DNA from: Burkholderiales bacterium PBB3
GTDB taxonomy: Bacteria > Pseudomonadota > Gammaproteobacteria > Burkholderiales > Burkholderiaceae_C
NCBI GenBank assembly: GCA_002256115.1
Contig: NKIK01000009.1
Location: 1 to 64,000, forward strand
Direction of reading: 5' to 3'
DNA: 64,000 nt
Under the pieces are notes generated by a model. The model did no database searches. It saw only the letters and a program-made list of their open reading frames with translations, and was not told the origin of the DNA. The number at the start of each line of letters is the position of its first letter. The first letter of the stretch is position 1. This document shows, in pieces, positions 7,581-32,628 of this stretch. Made by a program: the position numbers and the translations under genes.

Positions 7581-9073
7581 GCCTCGCACTGAACCCCTAC
7601 TGGCAAACCTTTTCTGCGCCATGGCGCCAGCGTAAAACCGAGAAGGCTTTTGGTTTCCTGATTGCGATTGCGGTTCTGATGAGTGCCTGCTGGTTGCTCT
7701 TATTGTTTATCACTCAATTCGACCGCAAGGCCATATTGACGGGCGTTGGCGTGACGCTGGTGTTTGTATCGCATGTTTTCTTGTTCTTGTATGTGGCCTC
7801 GGCCATGGCCTACAACCGACCGGTGTGCGTGTTGACCGTGCCTGGCTTTTTGAAAGTACAACGTCGCACGCTGATGGCTACGTGGAGTGTGGCCGTGCTG
7901 GTGCAGTGCCTGGGCTTGATCTTGCAACGCGAGATGAGCTTCGCGCGCTTCAGTGAAAACAATGGGCTGCTGCTGGTGATCTGTGTTGCCTGCAGCCTAC
8001 TGGGGCCGTTGATGCTGCGTTTTCATGGCTGGCTGGTCGTACCTTTCATGACCACGGGGTTTTGGTTGCCAAGACTGGAGGCCCTTTGGCCGCATGCCTT
8101 GGATAGCGCCAACCTGTGGCCGGTCTGGAACGCCTTTGATTGGGCATTGGCCCCGGTGTTGCTTGCCACCACAGCCTGGGTCGTGAGTCTCTGCGTCTTG
8201 CGCCCGGGGGACGCGCGGCATCGCGCAAGTGTGCAAGTGCTCACGGGATTGCAGGCGGCCATGCGCGGGAATTATTGGGATTTCGAGACCAAGCAAGCCC
8301 AAAGCCAGTCGAGGTTGGACCAATGGTTGGGTTTACAGGCGGGCAACGACTGGGCGTTCAATAGCCGAATGGCCGCGGCGCAACCCACGGCCGATTCCGT
8401 GCTGGACCGGGCTGAGCTTGCGTTTGCGCCCGAAATTCATTGGCGCAGGCGACTAGTCATGGCAGCCGTTGCTGTTGTGTTTGGGGCTTTCGTTGTTTGG
8501 TTCGTGAGGTTGGGCAGTGATTCCGTAGACCCCAGCCTTGCCAGTCCCATGCTGTATGTGTCGGCGATGCTCATCGGATGGACTCCGTTCGTGCAGTGGC
8601 ATCAATCCATGCAGCGCACGCACCGGGAGCAGGGCTTGTTGATGCTAGTGCCTGGCATGCCCAGCGGCAATGACCTGGCGCGCAGAATCGCTCGGCGCGT
8701 GCTGCAAAGTGCTGCGGTGACCTGGGTGTTGATGGCGCTGGTTCTGGCGATCACCGTGCAACTGTGGCCGGGTCGACCGTTGTTCACCTGGCTGGCCTGG
8801 GGGCTGGCATTGGCCAGCCTGCTGAGTTTGCCGTTTGTGGTGCGCGATTGGGCCCAAGCGCGGCCTCAAGCTGGACCTTCTAAATTACTTCTTTTGGGCT
8901 TGCCCTTGTTAGCAGGTGCTGTGGCGCTGGCGGTTGCGATGGCTTGGTCGGACTGGCCGATGGCACTGTGGGTCGTTTTGGCGTTGGCTGCGACGCTGGC
9001 CCACCTGGCGTGGCGGTGGCGTCGGCTGGCCAGAATGGGGCAGCCCTTGCCGGTTGGGCGCAGTGTGACCTAG
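7577..9073 (+). CDS. ABC transporter membrane protein, second of two paralogues
   Basis: A 498-residue polytopic membrane protein and tandem paralogue of the preceding gene; both share the LVPGMPSGN-type motif and a DWAQARP-type motif about 80 residues later. The ATG at 7577 overlaps the upstream stop (ATGA), a better choice than the in-frame codon at 7502 inside the upstream gene. It ends the GntR/ABC operon. No terminator with a clear U-run follows at once; the next strong hairpin is at 9465-9497. Confidence 0.82.
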   Translation: MSLALNPYWQTFSAPWRQRKTEKAFGFLIAIAVLMSACWLLLLFITQFDRKAILTGVGVTLVFVSHVFLFLYVASAMAYNRPVCVLTVPGFLKVQRRTLMATWSVAVLVQCLGLILQREMSFARFSENNGLLLVICVACSLLGPLMLRFHGWLVVPFMTTGFWLPRLEALWPHALDSANLWPVWNAFDWALAPVLLATTAWVVSLCVLRPGDARHRASVQVLTGLQAAMRGNYWDFETKQAQSQSRLDQWLGLQAGNDWAFNSRMAAAQPTADSVLDRAELAFAPEIHWRRRLVMAAVAVVFGAFVVWFVRLGSDSVDPSLASPMLYVSAMLIGWTPFVQWHQSMQRTHREQGLLMLVPGMPSGNDLARRIARRVLQSAAVTWVLMALVLAITVQLWPGRPLFTWLAWGLALASLLSLPFVVRDWAQARPQAGPSKLLLLGLPLLAGAVALAVAMAWSDWPMALWVVLALAATLAHLAWRWRRLARMGQPLPVGRSVT

Positions 9074-27886: not shown

Positions 27887-27947
27887 TGCTATCAAAACAG
27901 AAGCTGTTCCCGCACTATCCACGGCCTAGGCGTCCGATTGGACTTAA
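27887..27947 (+). repeat. Interspersed repeat, copy 6
   Basis: TGCTATCAAAACAGAAGCT leads to GTTCCCGCACTATCCACGG, then CCTAGGCGTCCGATTGGACTTAAG. It lies at the left edge of the GGDEF/borosin block, in the same orientation as copy 7 at its right edge. Confidence 0.88.
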
Positions 27948-28042
27948 GAAAAATGCTGCCACACGCAGGCCCACCGGTTCTATACTGCGCCGTAATAGGT
28001 TCGCCCCGCAGACCCCTTCACCCGCCCCAAGAAAAACACGCT

Positions 28043-28972
28043 ATGGAATCTGGCCAAACCCTGCTCATCATTGATGACAACGCGCAAACCATCCATCTGC
28101 TGACATCGCTGATGGAGGGGCAAGCCGCCGTGCACTTTGCCAAGGGCGGACTAGAGGGTATTCAGTTGGCCAAAACACTACGCCCAGACGTGGTGCTGCT
28201 CGACCTGGATATGCCCGCTAGGTCTGTCCCGCCCGGCATGAGCGGGCTGGATATTTGTAAACAACTCAAGGGCGATCTGCTGACCCGCGACTGCGCGGTG
28301 CTGATGGTGACAGGACACAACAGCGATGCCACCGAGCTCGCGGCCATGCGCGCGGGTGCGGTTGACGTATTGGCCAGACCCCTGCATGGCCCGATGGTGC
28401 AGATGCGGGTGCAGACCCAACTGACGCTGCAGCGCCAAGCCGCGGCGCTGCACAAGTTGGGACACTTGGATGGGCTAACGGCTTTGTTCAACCGCCGTTA
28501 CTTTGATACGCAATGGGATGTGGAGTGCCGCCGTCACCGCCGGCAGAACCAGCCCTTGGGGCTGGCGCTGGTGGATGTGGACCATTTCAAGCCGTTCAAC
28601 GATACCTATGACCATCTGCAAGGAGACGACGCGCTCAACCGGGTGGGGCAGTCTTTGCAGTCCACCGCGCGCAGGCCTGGTGAGGTGGTGGCCCGGTTTG
28701 ATGGTGATGAATTCGCCATCATCATTCCGTATGCATCGGCAGAAAACCTGGTGTCTTTGGGTGACCGCATTTGCGACAGTGTGGAAGGCATGGCGCTACC
28801 GCACGCCAGCTCAGATACCGCCCCGGTGGTCACCGTGAGCGTGGGTCTGGTTTCGGGCGTGCCCGCTGACGATGATTCAGGCCAGCGCATGCTGGACTTG
28901 GCGGTGCAGGCGTTGCAGCGTTCTAAAAGCCAAGGGCGTAACCGCGCGGTTGCCAGCATGTCGGACCGTTAG
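28043..28972 (+). CDS. Response regulator with GGDEF domain (predicted diguanylate cyclase, variant motif)
   Basis: A 309-residue two-domain signalling protein. The receiver domain (about 1-125) has the acidic pair Asp11/Asp12, phospho-acceptor Asp54 (VLLDLDMP) and Thr in MVTGHNS; the usual Lys of the K-P motif is Arg (LARPL). The GGDEF domain (about 147-305) begins LDGLTALFNRRYFD. Its active-site loop reads FDGDEFA, so the signature is DGDEF at 220-224 rather than GGDEF, and the inhibitory-site position reads RPGE instead of R-x-x-D. Variants at the first Gly can be active in known cyclases, so activity is uncertain. The stop lies 7 bp from the stop of the convergent borosin methyltransferase gene. 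The ATG at 28043 gives the correct receiver start. Confidence 0.9.
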   Translation: MESGQTLLIIDDNAQTIHLLTSLMEGQAAVHFAKGGLEGIQLAKTLRPDVVLLDLDMPARSVPPGMSGLDICKQLKGDLLTRDCAVLMVTGHNSDATELAAMRAGAVDVLARPLHGPMVQMRVQTQLTLQRQAAALHKLGHLDGLTALFNRRYFDTQWDVECRRHRRQNQPLGLALVDVDHFKPFNDTYDHLQGDDALNRVGQSLQSTARRPGEVVARFDGDEFAIIIPYASAENLVSLGDRICDSVEGMALPHASSDTAPVVTVSVGLVSGVPADDDSGQRMLDLAVQALQRSKSQGRNRAVASMSDR

Positions 28973-28979
28973 GCGGTCC

Positions 28980-29771
28980 TTAGGCTGCAAGTTGCGCCAG
29001 CACCGTCGCATCGGGCTTCAAAGGGCTGGCTGCAGGAATGACCAGGGTGGTGATGCCGTTTAACACCGCGTGGGGCAGGTCGCACAGCTTCAGTGATTCC
29101 ATGCGCGGGACTTCAAACGGGGTCGTGGCGGCCTCGTACAAGATGACCGTGTGCTCGCGCGGGTAGTCCCGGGCCAGCTTGTCCACCAGCACTTGCAGCT
29201 TGGCCGGGCTGGTTTCAAAGCGTTTCAGGGTCAGCTCACCTGCCAAGTAAGGCTGCCACAGAATCAGCAATGCGCTGGGGTCTATGTGGCGCTCGTAGAT
29301 CATGAACTGGGTGGTTTCCATGGACTGCATACCGGTGCGCCCGGGGTCTAGCCCCAAGTCGGCCACCAGGCAATCCTCGGTAGAAATGCCGGGCAACATT
29401 TCCGCGCTGTAGCCCTCTGCGCGAGCGTCCTGAATGGCAAGGTGCGCGATGCAAGCGAAGATGCCTGGGTGCCCGTAAAAGGCGGCGCACACGGTCTTGC
29501 CAGCGCGCACCTCGGTCAGCACTGTGTCGGCCATGCGCCGGTAGGTGTCGCGCCGGTCTTTGCCGTCCACATCGCAGTCTTGGTAGTAGCCCAGGAGGCA
29601 CGTGTACTCTTTGGCGATCTCTTGCAGCCACTTGCGGGCAAAGTTGTTGGGGATGGCCCCCACCACAATGTCCGCTGTCTTGATATAGCTCAGGGCCAGT
29701 GGCGTCATTTGTCCGGCCATGCGCAGCCCGGTGCCCACGCAGATCAGTTTGCCTGCCTTTGTGGTGTTCAT
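28980..29771 (-). CDS. Split borosin peptide alpha-N-methyltransferase (tetrapyrrole-methylase fold)
   Basis: A 263-residue SAM-dependent methylase of the tetrapyrrole methylase superfamily. The SAM loop is CVGTGLRMAGQMT (11-23). Residues expected for peptide backbone methylation are present: Tyr62/Tyr63, then RRDTY (73-77) with Arg and Tyr, and YGHPG (99-103). Recalled family knowledge: the fungal OphMA and Shewanella SonM borosin methyltransferases use the same Tyr, Arg and Tyr and the YGHPG turn, and the sequence resembles SonM along its whole length (PGISTEDCLVADLGLDPG, FMIYERHIDPSALLILWQ). The enzyme is free-standing, so it should act in trans on the 72-residue peptide encoded at 31564-31782. 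It overlaps the upstream gene by 4 nt. A role in cobalamin or siroheme synthesis is unlikely. Confidence 0.88.
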   Translation of the reverse strand: MNTTKAGKLICVGTGLRMAGQMTPLALSYIKTADIVVGAIPNNFARKWLQEIAKEYTCLLGYYQDCDVDGKDRRDTYRRMADTVLTEVRAGKTVCAAFYGHPGIFACIAHLAIQDARAEGYSAEMLPGISTEDCLVADLGLDPGRTGMQSMETTQFMIYERHIDPSALLILWQPYLAGELTLKRFETSPAKLQVLVDKLARDYPREHTVILYEAATTPFEVPRMESLKLCDLPHAVLNGITTLVIPAASPLKPDATVLAQLAA

Positions 29772-31567
29772 TCTTGGGTCTGCGGGTCTTGTGCAGGCTG
29801 GTAAACGCTGACGCGGTTGCGGCCCGCGTTTTTGGAGCGGTACAAGGTCTTGTCGGCGGCCACCAGAGTTTCTTCGTAGGTGTGTGGTGTGGGGCTGTTG
29901 CGCGTCGCAATGCCAAAGCTGGCAGTCAGCGCAAAGTCAAAGCCGCTGGGGCCGCTGTCGATGGCGGCAATAGCGGCGCGACAGGCTTCAGCCAGGGCAC
30001 GTACGTCGTCTTCGGTCTGGCCTACGGATTGCACTGCGCAAATGGCAAACTCTTCACCGCCCAATCGGCCGATGAGGTCGCCCTTGCGCAGTTGCGCCTT
30101 GACGGTGTGGCACACCGTTTTGAGCACCCAGTCTCCCGTCGCATGACCATAGGTGTCGTTGATGCGTTTGAACCAATCCATATCAAACAACACCAGGCTG
30201 ACTGGTGTTTTTGCCTGGGCGAAGCAGTTTTTTGCGCAGGCCGTAAAGTGCGTTCGGTTGCTGACCTGGGTCAGCCCGTCCACCTCGGCGGTGATGCGGA
30301 ATAGGTTTTTTTGGCGCAGCGTTTTGATGAGCCAGGCCCCCAAAATGGTCAACACCACTGCCCCCAGCGTCAGCAGCAGCACCAGGTTTTGGTAGCGGCG
30401 TTGTTGCAGCTCCTTTTCAATGCTCAGGGTCTTGCTTTGCTGTTCCAGCAGGGCCATTTGGTTGGCCTTGTCCCGGGTTTCAAACCTCACCCTCTGGTAG
30501 GCCAGGTTCTTTTGCTGTTGCTCGTTCAGCGCCTTCTTCTTCAGCGTCAGATTGATATCGTAGTAATTGATGGCGCTGGCCAACTGGTTTTGGGCGCGCT
30601 GGATGGTGGCCATGGTTTCGCTGGTTTCCTGTTGCAGTTGCAGCACTTTTCCCGCTTGGGCGCGCTGGTAGGCCAGTAGCCCATAGTGGTGGGCACGCTG
30701 GGTGTTGCCCAGCTTGAGGTAGGCGCGGGCCACCGCCTCTTGCAATCCGGTCAGGAAGTCAGAGCTATCTGCCATCACCGTAAATTGCTGCATGAGCGGC
30801 AGGCTGGCCTCCAGCCCGCGCGCATACTGGCCCGAGTCAATCAGATGGATGGCTACATTGGTCCGGACGATGAGCGAGAAGAACAGGTTCTTGTCGGCAT
30901 CGCAATCCCGAATGGCATCCGGGACCAAGGCCAGCGCCGCCGTGCTGTTACCACGGATAAAGTTCAACTCCACCTTGTCCGTCAAGCCCACGCACTTGGC
31001 GTAGGCATTGTTTTGGGTGATGCCCAAGTCATGAATGCGGTCGGCAAACTCCAGGGCCTCGTCATAGGCGCGAAACGAGTGCAGCAGCGCCAGCGCCCCT
31101 TGCAATACGGCGATTTTTTCTGTGGTGTGTTGCAGGTCTGGTAGCAGCAGAATGGATTCATTCATGGCCTGCAAAGCGCTTTCAAAGCGACCCAGTGCGG
31201 CGTTGCCGTCAATCAGCTCATACAGCAGCCGGGCTCGATTGGCCGGGCTTTGGGGTTTCTGGACGATGGACTCAACCAGAGCCACGCGCTCTTCGTGCCG
31301 ACCTTGGTATCCCAATGAACTCGCCAGGTAGCGCTGGTATTTGTCGTTCTGCACCGCATTGAAGCTGGGCTGCAGAGTGCGCAGGCGCTCCAGGGGTTGT
31401 TGCGCTTTGGTCGGTTCCGAAGTCAGGTATTTGGCCGATTCAGCCAGCAAGGCGTCTACGGTGACTGGGTCTTCCGCGGGTGCAGCGCCGCAGTGGCCAA
31501 AGCCCAGTAGAGCCAGGACAGGGATGGCGCGACCGAGTAACAGCACTTTGCCGCGCAAGGCCTTCAA
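29768..31567 (-). CDS. TPR-repeat membrane sensor with GGDEF domain (diguanylate cyclase)
   Basis: A 599-residue protein. The N-terminus has a signal sequence (LLLGRAIPVLALLGFGHCGAAPA). Residues about 35-340 are helical tetratricopeptide-like repeats expected in the periplasm. A coiled stretch follows (TLKKKALNEQQQKNLAYQRV), then one membrane helix at about 398-418 (LVLLLTLGAVVLTILGAWLI). The cytoplasmic GGDEF domain begins DGLTQVSNRTHF; the active-site motif is intact (RLGGEEF, GGEEF at 503-507) and the inhibitory site R-x-x-D is intact (RKGD at 494-497). It should make cyclic di-GMP in response to a periplasmic signal or partner. It is the middle gene of the operon, overlapping both neighbours by 4 nt, between the borosin precursor and its methyltransferase. 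That placement is not one I know from other borosin loci. Confidence 0.9.
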   Translation of the reverse strand: MKALRGKVLLLGRAIPVLALLGFGHCGAAPAEDPVTVDALLAESAKYLTSEPTKAQQPLERLRTLQPSFNAVQNDKYQRYLASSLGYQGRHEERVALVESIVQKPQSPANRARLLYELIDGNAALGRFESALQAMNESILLLPDLQHTTEKIAVLQGALALLHSFRAYDEALEFADRIHDLGITQNNAYAKCVGLTDKVELNFIRGNSTAALALVPDAIRDCDADKNLFFSLIVRTNVAIHLIDSGQYARGLEASLPLMQQFTVMADSSDFLTGLQEAVARAYLKLGNTQRAHHYGLLAYQRAQAGKVLQLQQETSETMATIQRAQNQLASAINYYDINLTLKKKALNEQQQKNLAYQRVRFETRDKANQMALLEQQSKTLSIEKELQQRRYQNLVLLLTLGAVVLTILGAWLIKTLRQKNLFRITAEVDGLTQVSNRTHFTACAKNCFAQAKTPVSLVLFDMDWFKRINDTYGHATGDWVLKTVCHTVKAQLRKGDLIGRLGGEEFAICAVQSVGQTEDDVRALAEACRAAIAAIDSGPSGFDFALTASFGIATRNSPTPHTYEETLVAADKTLYRSKNAGRNRVSVYQPAQDPQTQE

Positions 31568-31782
31568 TTGAACGGCGTGTTGGATATTTGGGGTGGGGGT
31601 AGCAAACTCGGCTCGACGCCACAGAGCTTAGCGATGGCCTGGGTGTCACCGGAGGCCAAGGCCAGTTGTTCTTCTTCGGTCAGGCCAAACTGGGTCATGG
31701 CGGCTTTGGGGTCTGCGGCATGGGCTTGGCGCGCGGCGGCATCACTGTCGATGGTGTTCAAGTAATCTAGAAGTTTGGACAT
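31564..31782 (-). CDS. Predicted borosin precursor peptide
   Basis: A 72-residue peptide. The first part is a helical leader (LLDYLNTIDSDAAARQAHAA), followed by DPKAAMTQFGLTEEEQLALA, SGDTQAIAKLCGV and a 16-residue tail EPSLLPPPQISNTPFN (57-72). The segment D/N-P-x-A-x-M-x-x-x-G-L-T-x-E-(E/Q) and the following SGD/TGD turn match the borosin-binding domain of the Shewanella precursor SonA as recalled. The tail is the likely core peptide, where the backbone N-methyl groups would be placed; Q65-I66-S67 aligns with the methylated hydrophobic stretch of SonA. It overlaps the GGDEF gene by 4 nt (ATGA at 31564-31567), so the operon starts here. The ribosome site is weak. Confidence 0.85.
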   Translation of the reverse strand: MSKLLDYLNTIDSDAAARQAHAADPKAAMTQFGLTEEEQLALASGDTQAIAKLCGVEPSLLPPPQISNTPFN

Positions 31783-31860
31783 GGCGCAGTTTTGGATGGT
31801 CTGAGTTTGTGAAAATTTGCAACAGCAAACGATTCTAAAGCCTGAGCATGACGCAGCAGT

Positions 31861-31921
31861 TTTGCTATCAAAAAAGAAGCTGCTCCCGCACTATCCACGT
31901 CTTCAAAGACGCTTTTGCCTT
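31861..31921 (+). repeat. Interspersed repeat, copy 7
   Basis: TTTGCTATCAAAAAAGAA precedes the core GCTGCTCCCGCACTATCCA and then CGTCTTCAAAGACGCTTTTGCC, an altered tail that forms a hairpin GTCTTcaAAGAC. The tail overlaps the last codons and the stop of the Crp/Fnr gene on the other strand (stop at 31903-31905), so the repeat supplies the end of that protein. Confidence 0.82.
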
Positions 31922-32628
31922 GTAAATACTTGGGAGCGTAAGGCGGCTAAGTCCAGCACCCGCAGGCCGCCATATTCCACCCGGATCGACCCCTGCGCGG
32001 CCAGCGTCGTCAGGGCCTCGTTCACCCGCTGGCGCGACAGACCCACCAGGTAGGCCAGCTCCTGCTGGGTGATGCTGAGCAGCTCGCCCACGCCGGGGTA
32101 AAGCACCGGGTTGAACAGCGCAGCCAAGCTGCGGGCCACGCGGATATCGGGGTTGGTCATGCGGTCAATCTCGCGCGCGGCGATGAATTGGCCCAGGCGC
32201 TCATTGAGCTGGTTCATCACAAAGCGGTTGAAGCCGATGGAGTGGTCCAGTAACCAGTGGAAGGTGTCCACGTGCAGTCCGGCGACCAAGCTCTTGCGCA
32301 GCGCCTGGATGTTGTAGCGGTAGACCTCGCGTTTGAGCGCCGTGCCTTCGCCAAACCAGCCGCCAGGTGGCACACCGGTGAAGGTCATGGTCTGGCCCTG
32401 CTCGTTGTCCGAACTCATTTTTAGCAGACCATCCACCACGCCAAACCAGTAGGTCACGGGTCGACCCATGCGGCATACGTAGTCGCCGGGGCTGGCGTCG
32501 GCAATGCGCAAATCGTCCACCGCGCGCTCGCGCTCCGCTGGGGCCAGCAGATGAATCCACGGGATGGCGTCCAGCTCGGCCACCGTAAGCGGGCGGCGGC
32601 GCTGGTGTAGAGGAAGGTCGAGGCTCAT
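31903..32628 (-). CDS. Crp/Fnr family transcriptional regulator
   Basis: A 241-residue regulator with an N-terminal CAP_ED sensor domain (DYVCRMGRPVTYWFGVVDGLLKM, GGWFGEGTALK) and a C-terminal Crp-type winged helix (LLSITQQELAYLVGLSRQRVNEAL, then LAAQGSIRVEYGGLRVLDL). There are no N-terminal cysteines for an iron-sulfur cluster, so it is not FNR-like. The ligand is unknown. Because it lies directly upstream of the borosin operon on the same strand (120 bp), it could regulate that operon or be read through into it; this is inference. A truncated, nearly identical N-terminal copy occurs at 38378-38569. Its extreme C-terminus lies in repeat copy 7. Confidence 0.92.
   Translation of the reverse strand: MSLDLPLHQRRRPLTVAELDAIPWIHLLAPAERERAVDDLRIADASPGDYVCRMGRPVTYWFGVVDGLLKMSSDNEQGQTMTFTGVPPGGWFGEGTALKREVYRYNIQALRKSLVAGLHVDTFHWLLDHSIGFNRFVMNQLNERLGQFIAAREIDRMTNPDIRVARSLAALFNPVLYPGVGELLSITQQELAYLVGLSRQRVNEALTTLAAQGSIRVEYGGLRVLDLAALRSQVFTRQKRL

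Follow-up and report, generated by a model that had tools for sequence, protein, structure and literature searches.

A split-borosin operon of Burkholderiales bacterium PBB3 as a candidate peptide signalling unit with a TPR sensor

Why should the genes for a backbone-N-methylated peptide enclose a gene for a membrane-bound diguanylate cyclase? This question is raised by an operon in the genome of Burkholderiales bacterium PBB3, located in a stretch of 64,000 nucleotides (contig NKIK01000009.1, positions 1 to 64,000) that is referred to here as the window. The operon occupies 28980-31782 on the minus strand and, according to open reading frame (ORF) calling, runs from a borosin precursor through a sensor-diguanylate cyclase with a GGDEF domain to a methyltransferase. 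The genes are joined by two 4-nt overlaps on the same strand, one between the precursor stop and the TTG start of the cyclase (31564-31567) and one, ATGA, between the cyclase stop and the start of the methyltransferase (29768-29771). An earlier sequence-only reading had described three overlapping minus-strand genes of 72, 599, and 263 aa, which the ORF calls confirm, and had interpreted them as a split borosin operon; this interpretation is partly supported. It did not include the observation that what is conserved in the GGDEF protein is a tetratricopeptide repeat (TPR) sensor, predicted to lie in the periplasm, and that a histidine kinase can take the place of the cyclase as its output. The best-supported reading, unproven and given a probability of roughly one half, sees the operon as a peptide signalling unit complete in itself, in which an N-methylated peptide would be detected by the periplasmic TPR receptor encoded with it and change cyclic dimeric GMP (c-di-GMP). 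Binding of the peptide to the receptor is inferred.

The methyltransferase (28980-29771, minus strand, ATG start) is a SonM-like peptide backbone alpha-N-methyltransferase of 263 aa without a fused core, its precursor being encoded by a separate gene. Compared with the chain sequences of the PDB, it matches SonM (7ltc) with an E-value of 1.1e-78 over residues 7-261, followed among the fungal borosin structures by dbOphM (1.8e-46) and OphMA (about 1e-42). It shares 126 of 262 residues with the SonM orthologue of locus L115. The catalytic residues are kept: Y63, R73, Y77, and Y99 align with Y58, R67, Y71, and Y93 of SonM, which are the residues mutated in PMC8429565, and they are conserved in 112, 110, 110, and 108 of 114 aligned enzymes, respectively. 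The further residues highlighted by the sequence-only reading are present as well. A cobalamin- or siroheme-type tetrapyrrole methylase next to an incidental small ORF would share the TP_methylase fold, which is common to both. However, the best Cob/Cbi model among the cobalamin-type NCBIfam equivalogs gave 26.4 bits where the cut-off demands 163.25, and the best NCBIfam model overall, YabN, failed with 37.9 bits against 525. This alternative is already contradicted by the SonM and OphMA matches and by the precursor found in 25 of 25 beta-proteobacterial loci, and its probability is negligible; a best match to CobA/CysG-type enzymes, which had been named as a refutation, did not occur. Judged from its sequence, the enzyme is a split-borosin (type IV-like) alpha-N-methyltransferase, as had been proposed.

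The precursor (31564-31782, minus strand, 72 aa, ATG start) is SonA-like. Its assignment draws on the ORF, the match to SonA, the Pfam family LigA, and its presence in all 25 beta-proteobacterial loci. It aligns without gaps to SonA over residues 1-57 (8t1s_B, E 0.001) and 1-55 (7ltc_B, E 0.0013), while the LigA score of 25.8 bits is barely above the cut-off of 25.3. Residues 1-55 (31618-31782), which align gaplessly to the same residues of SonA, form the leader or borosin-binding domain (BBD), a name and docking role given in PMC8429565. The portion beyond the SonA-aligned leader, residues 56-72 with the sequence VEPSLLPPPQISNTPFN (31567-31617), is the presumed core tail. The leader residues are as claimed earlier; the tail comprises 17 residues after Gly55 instead of the 16 that had been counted. 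It is proline-rich, unlike that of SonA. The motif PQ[AVISTG]x[NQHL] is present in 37 of 112 precursors, against a mean of 2.5 and a maximum of 7 in shuffles; the precursors themselves were collected with curated seeds. A Luteibacter locus (L061, 8492-11111) carries seven tandem precursors ahead of one receptor gene, most of their tails containing PQ(A/V/I)xQ. In Undibacterium and Solimicrobium, a second, diverged precursor lies between receptor and enzyme (L018, L019, L021, L022, and L024, at about 7585-8004).

The middle gene (29768-31567, minus strand, TTG start) encodes a sensor-diguanylate cyclase of 599 aa, composed of an N-terminal hydrophobic segment, a TPR sensor, one transmembrane (TM) helix, and a GGDEF domain. 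Its hydrophobic segments span residues 8-26 and 396-414. The latter corresponds, by hydrophobicity and model, to the TM helix (30326-30382), which lies inside a long helix of residues 329-428. In the AlphaFold2 model of the full protein (alignment of 50; pLDDT 91.9, pTM 0.64), helices at residues 37-325 are followed by this single helix, which passes through the membrane segment and continues to the GGDEF domain; the sensor modelled alone reached a pLDDT of 93.0. The sensor region, residues 35-385 (30413-31465), is predicted to be periplasmic and consists of paired helices. Pfam recognises the GGDEF domain alone and no TPR, and the TPR name rests on the predicted fold. LGN/Pins complexes rank first among the 50 Foldseek matches shown, and the bacterial matches among them include Rap (with pheromone, and apo RapI) and NprR, with TM-scores (TMq) of 0.52-0.59. 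By sequence, the sensor has 11 matches, to pentatricopeptide and alpha-solenoid chains, with no RRNPP protein among them. Cys192 (30992-30994) and Cys222 (30902-30904) are invariant in 101 of 101 sensor-bearing GGDEF proteins. In the model, they lie on the adjacent helices 188-204 and 208-224, placed so that they would face each other, and may form a disulfide. The GGDEF domain (29813-30289; Pfam GGDEF 1.5e-34) has an intact GGEEF motif and an RxxD I-site (RKGD). Synthesis of c-di-GMP is predicted from the intact GGEEF, which is also present in 85 of 86 paired cyclases.

The sensor is a near-constant companion of the enzyme. Genome contigs were scanned for the enzyme, keeping the best 80 of 161 encoding stretches. 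The enzyme occurred in 8 of 103 genomes in a genus search and, in even samples, in 10 of 369 genomes of the class and 15 of 398 of the phylum. The resulting locus set holds 101 SonM-like enzymes at an identity of at least 41%, including the window and excluding L114, a second copy of L067. A sensor with GGDEF domain lies within 4.5 kb of 94 of these enzymes, its gene being on the opposite strand in L113. By a hidden Markov model (HMM) of the sensor, the rest comprise a histidine kinase that matches the HMM (L121), a sensor cut by the contig end (L026), and five loci without a match (L073, L078, L082, L102, and L119), although Pfam identifies a TPR-hybrid kinase in two of these, L102 and L119. 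The 12 more distant borosin enzymes (below 41% identity) have no GGDEF ORF of at least 500 aa within 4.5 kb. Among the GGDEF ORFs near enzymes, 101 of 108 carry the TPR sensor, and the other seven are exactly those without the cysteine pair. Precursor, sensor-GGDEF gene, and enzyme occur together in 25 of 25 beta-proteobacterial loci, so that the three-gene grouping is not due to chance. The GGDEF protein had been regarded as an oddity, an impression that does not hold, as nearly every SonM-like locus examined has one. Locus L115 carries the orthologues of SonM and SonA (E 1e-138 and 7e-26) followed by a sensor-GGDEF gene (sensor HMM 7e-31), and therefore the prototype SonM/SonA cluster type has one too.

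The association also holds when starting from the sensor. In 149 relatives, the sensor is found in 8 genomes, which are the same 8 that have the enzyme, and all 10 copies are at the locus. In the 398 phylum genomes, 18 have a sensor match with E <= 1e-8 and 12 a strong one (E <= 1e-30). The enzyme is present in 11 of these 12, G739 being the exception. Conversely, 4 of the 15 enzyme genomes are without a strong sensor, namely the kinase-type G450, G826, and G793 and the distant G490. A search of eight further genomes with a Dyella sensor as query yielded two new copies (L127 and L128), both accompanied by an enzyme and a precursor of their own; L129, fetched in the same search, is the L076 locus.

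Gene order differs between groups, being precursor-receptor-enzyme in beta-proteobacteria and enzyme-precursor-receptor in Lysobacterales and most others. Constant in both orders is the receptor right behind the precursor: the gap is at most 60 nt, or the genes overlap, for 85 of 113 precursors, and a receptor lies within 3.5 kb of 97 of them. These 113 include the L114 copy, and some starts are a longest-ORF choice that may be off. Precursor and receptor can also be duplicated as a pair, as in L006, which has two precursor-receptor pairs and one enzyme. In genome G023 (L093), two enzymes and three receptors go with two detected precursors, while the seven precursors of L061 are accompanied by one receptor.

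The output of the receptor is exchangeable. The precursor of L102, L119, and L121 is followed by a gene for a TPR protein in which Pfam recognises HisKA, HATPase, and two receiver domains; an Hpt domain is over the cut-off in L121, under it in L102, and absent in L119. The signal peptide and TM helices of the kinase-type receptors were judged by eye. The cyclase-derived sensor HMM matches the L121 and L102 proteins over almost the entire length of the HMM, with E-values of 4e-12 and 4e-9, the latter from a search of four proteins and not under 1e-5 in a large set. It does not match L119, which is assigned by Pfam TPR only. In the genus of G450, the enzyme is encoded in 52 of 59 genomes at 61 places. 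The kinase-receptor class accounts for 25 of these loci, consisting of L102, L121, and 23 fetched ones, 22 of which are matched by the cyclase-derived HMM. A kinase was seen at 24 of the 25, and at the last (L144) the contig breaks off at a kinase-type sensor. Of the other 36 places, 34 have a cyclase sensor within 3 kb. The 12 printed kinase-class precursors have tails ending in RV(I/V)(N/S/H)Y, unlike the variable cyclase-class tails. These precursors are closely alike across species (L131, L133-L135, L138-L141, L143, and L145-L147). Since the TPR sensor is kept while the GGDEF domain is swapped for a kinase, the pair of peptide and sensor is constant and the output variable.

Further neighbours were sought among the genes shared by at least 4 of the 25 beta-proteobacterial loci, with genes picked by a longest-ORF rule. 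By this count, the receptor is present in 25, the enzyme in 24, an M14 zinc carboxypeptidase in 11, and an outer-membrane efflux protein (OEP) in 5 loci. The M14 gene (Pfam 2.2e-12; for example, L018 3511-5229) precedes the precursor on the same strand, ending 89-405 nt ahead of the first precursor found in 10 of the 11 cases. The OEP gene (for example, L007 3849-5336) is likewise upstream on the same strand, with gaps of 54-660 nt. Both may be maturation and export partners, or merely reflect local synteny. The window's operon is flanked at its 3' end by a converging response-regulator GGDEF gene (27938-28972, plus strand) and, 120 nt upstream, by a Crp/Fnr-type regulator gene on the same strand as the operon (31906-32628, minus strand). 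Neither occurs in another of the 25 beta-proteobacterial loci, nor is any other flank gene of the operon common to any of them. No promoter-like sites were found in 28900-32000, and the six terminator-like sites in this interval are at background level (shuffle mean 4.1).

For the proposed signalling unit, the following mechanism is conceivable. By homology, the methyltransferase would dock the precursor leader and methylate backbone amides of the C-terminal tail, as demonstrated for SonM and SonA in PMC8429565. The tail would then be cut off by a protease not encoded beside the operon and reach the periplasm, where N-methylation could provide protease resistance and perhaps membrane permeability. 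There, it would bind to the TPR superhelix of the sensor, whose gene immediately follows that of the precursor. Given the architecture of the protein, binding could be relayed through the single TM helix to the GGDEF domain, altering c-di-GMP; elsewhere, the same pair of peptide and TPR sensor would drive a hybrid histidine kinase. Cleavage and periplasmic passage are the weakest points of this mechanism. The pattern of a peptide beside a receptor, recurring in many bacteria with varied output, suggests that the peptides act as bacterial signals.

A number of observations weigh against this reading. The loci as a whole have no exporter or protease gene in common. In the window, neither the M14 nor the OEP gene adjoins the operon, and there is no adjacent exporter or protease gene. 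A search of the own genome with Pfam PF00026 (pepsin-like), directed at what is presumably a shewasin-like protease, was blank, as were the controls, so that the search was without a positive control and no conclusion is drawn. In the precursor, P62-P64, which are not N-methylatable, sit at and before the methylation register of SonA, which is methylated by SonM at L63 and I65 (PMC8429565). The residues closest to this register are P63, P64, Q65, and I66, and of these Q65 and I66 alone could accept a methyl group. On the receptor side, three enzyme loci (L073, L078, and L082) are without any receptor, 2 of the 36 cyclase-class enzymes in the genus of G450 have none within 3 kb, and at 5 of 45 places in one genus (L130 and L154-L157) the sensor occurs without enzyme or precursor. 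One paired cyclase (L117) is without the GGEEF motif, and the I-site pattern is absent in 15 of 86 (present in 71). As for the fold, LapB, which is not a pheromone receptor, is also among the Foldseek matches (TMq 0.28-0.29). TM-scores near 0.55 indicate likeness of shape rather than kinship, and TPRs bind many partners.

Covariation belongs on the same side. In partial Mantel tests controlling for enzyme and GGDEF, the core tail correlates with the sensor at r 0.36 and 0.33 in two clades, and at 0.34 and 0.34 with the leader added (p 0.0005 each, which is the floor of 1999 permutations). Simulated cores sharing the sensor or cyclase tree give means of 0.25-0.38 near the observed divergence, and 6% to 62% of simulations reach the observed value, depending on the setting (100 simulations each). 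In the beta clade, these are 56% on the sensor tree and 35% on the cyclase tree at the settings nearest the observed divergence. In the gamma clade, they are 62% and 40% on the sensor tree and 36% and 6% on the cyclase tree, with n 49 of 51 after dropping the badly split tails of L074 and L083. The leader shows a similar correlation with the sensor (0.30 and 0.34). Mapping core classes on the sensor, GGDEF, and enzyme trees gives nearly equal change counts and no discrimination. Covariation was therefore rejected as proof of binding, because simulated cores on these trees and the leader behave alike. As tails simulated on the receptor tree largely reproduce the correlation, it reflects co-inheritance of precursor and receptor, not contact. 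The core tails do not follow the enzyme tree, on which 0-3% of simulations reach the observed value. They thus track the history of the receptor gene over that of the enzyme, for which the slower, less informative sequence of the enzyme may be a partial cause. Leader and enzyme correlate at 0.33 and 0.39, as expected for a docking pair and with the same co-inheritance limit. Sliding windows along the sensor peak differently in the two clades, and no binding site is claimed.

The main competing explanation reverses the direction of signalling: the sensor-cyclase or kinase would be the input, its TPR domain sensing another periplasmic cue and switching on production or release of a peptide that acts elsewhere, for example as an antimicrobial, in metal binding, or in predation defence. 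Co-transcribed regulators are common in clusters of ribosomally synthesised and post-translationally modified peptides (RiPPs). The sensors without a precursor also speak for it, as their existence means that the sensor has or had other ligands, and so does the strong variation of the cyclase-class core tails, which far exceeds that of the enzyme. However, a sensor of such a cue should not have to lie within 60 nt of the precursor whichever the gene order, nor be duplicated with it. Furthermore, the neighbour genes common to at least 4 of the 25 beta-proteobacterial loci yielded no recognisable c-di-GMP receptor, with only six of these genes searched in Pfam. This explanation is considered unlikely. 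A role of the TPR domain in capturing, maturing, or sequestering the peptide for immunity or delivery, with the cyclase or kinase reporting envelope load, is improbable. TPR scaffolds are often adaptors, and one receptor for seven precursors in L061 would suit such handling, yet the intact GGEEF in nearly all paired cyclases and the replacement of the output by a complete hybrid kinase point to signalling.

Historical linkage, with a cyclase unrelated to the peptide, could draw on the abundance of GGDEF genes (57 matches in the 4.76 Mb genome), on the unrelated response-regulator GGDEF gene adjoining the locus, and on the covariation signal, which needs no more than linkage. It is very improbable, as the association extends across Lysobacterales and Burkholderiales as well as eight GTDB family codes, which overlap the named orders and include f202 with the kinase. 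It also concerns one specific sensor family that survives changes of gene order and output domain, and the enzyme accompanies all but one of the strong sensors in the phylum sample. The signalling reading remains the preferred one. A wider proposal would make the SonM-type split borosins a family of backbone-N-methylated pheromones in Gram-negative bacteria, each precursor being read by the adjacent periplasmic TPR receptor, with interchangeable outputs (c-di-GMP or hybrid phosphorelay); N-methylation would provide a stable signal, which may pass the envelope with no exporter dedicated to it. This proposal is tentative and judged slightly more apt to fail than to hold.

Some loci outside this scheme were also noted. 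L130 (6863-9529) has a sensor-cyclase, no borosin enzyme or precursor, and a possible double-glycine-leader peptide upstream, which matches the NCBIfam model ComC with E 0.007, far under the cut-off. A peptide partner for the enzyme-less sensors was rejected, as L130 is the only one of five with a candidate, at a distance of about 0.75 kb and beyond an intervening gene, and no pattern emerges. Plasmid p155_2 of Bradyrhizobium sp. 155 (L124, 6986-11998) carries a different-looking borosin cluster, in which two genes for SAM-dependent methyltransferases that match the borosin enzyme are accompanied by a TauD-like dioxygenase, a small ORF, and a prolyl oligopeptidase. Plasmid AZO_p2 of Azospirillum lipoferum 4B (L126, 1306-9274) encodes three hypothetical proteins of 569-632 aa and, after them, one of 798 aa that contains a borosin-like methyltransferase domain.

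The sequence-only reading knew of no described borosin with a GGDEF protein inside the operon. The Figure 1 legend of PMC11395268, from 2024, lists GGDEF as a domain among the drawn borosin architectures, so the gene association has been seen before and is partly known, probably from the 2022 papers cited there. In a full-text literature search, no stated peptide-receptor role or kinase swap was found for borosins, although subscription papers could hold one. Neither was a full-text paper found that joins borosin with diguanylate cyclase, or tetratricopeptide and GGDEF with a peptide ligand. If the signalling reading is true, the operon would represent a class of Gram-negative peptide signalling based on backbone N-methylation, whose paired receptors could be used as biosensors for engineered N-methyl peptides. 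A conserved receptor with swappable output beside the precursor is a testable lead on the role of bacterial borosins.

Among known systems, SonM/SonA of Shewanella oneidensis, a type IV split borosin, likewise has a separate 263-aa enzyme and a precursor of about 70 aa, with a LigA-like BBD and the same catalytic residues. The order in the SonM/SonA-type locus L115 is enzyme-precursor-receptor, whereas it is precursor-receptor-enzyme in the window. The fused fungal borosins OphMA and dbOphMA share the enzyme fold and family; the window differs from them by its separate precursor gene and its receptor gene. The RRNPP systems Rap/Phr and NprR/NprX are similar in that the propeptide gene adjoins the receptor gene (abstract of PMC10075063), and the modelled TPR superhelix is of similar size and shape. 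They differ in having a cytoplasmic receptor and an unmodified peptide, whereas the TPR domain of the window is predicted to be periplasmic and membrane-anchored, with a presumably N-methylated peptide. Moreover, this sensor is tied to GGDEF or histidine kinase outputs, and no sequence kinship is shown. With other periplasmic-sensor diguanylate cyclases, the protein has in common a signal anchor, an extracytoplasmic sensor, a TM helix, and a GGEEF motif with I-site. It differs from them by a TPR sensor family with two invariant cysteines that is tied to a RiPP precursor. Peptide and enzyme are a new member of the split-borosin family, and the system is a variant in which a TPR receptor of exchangeable output is the constant partner.

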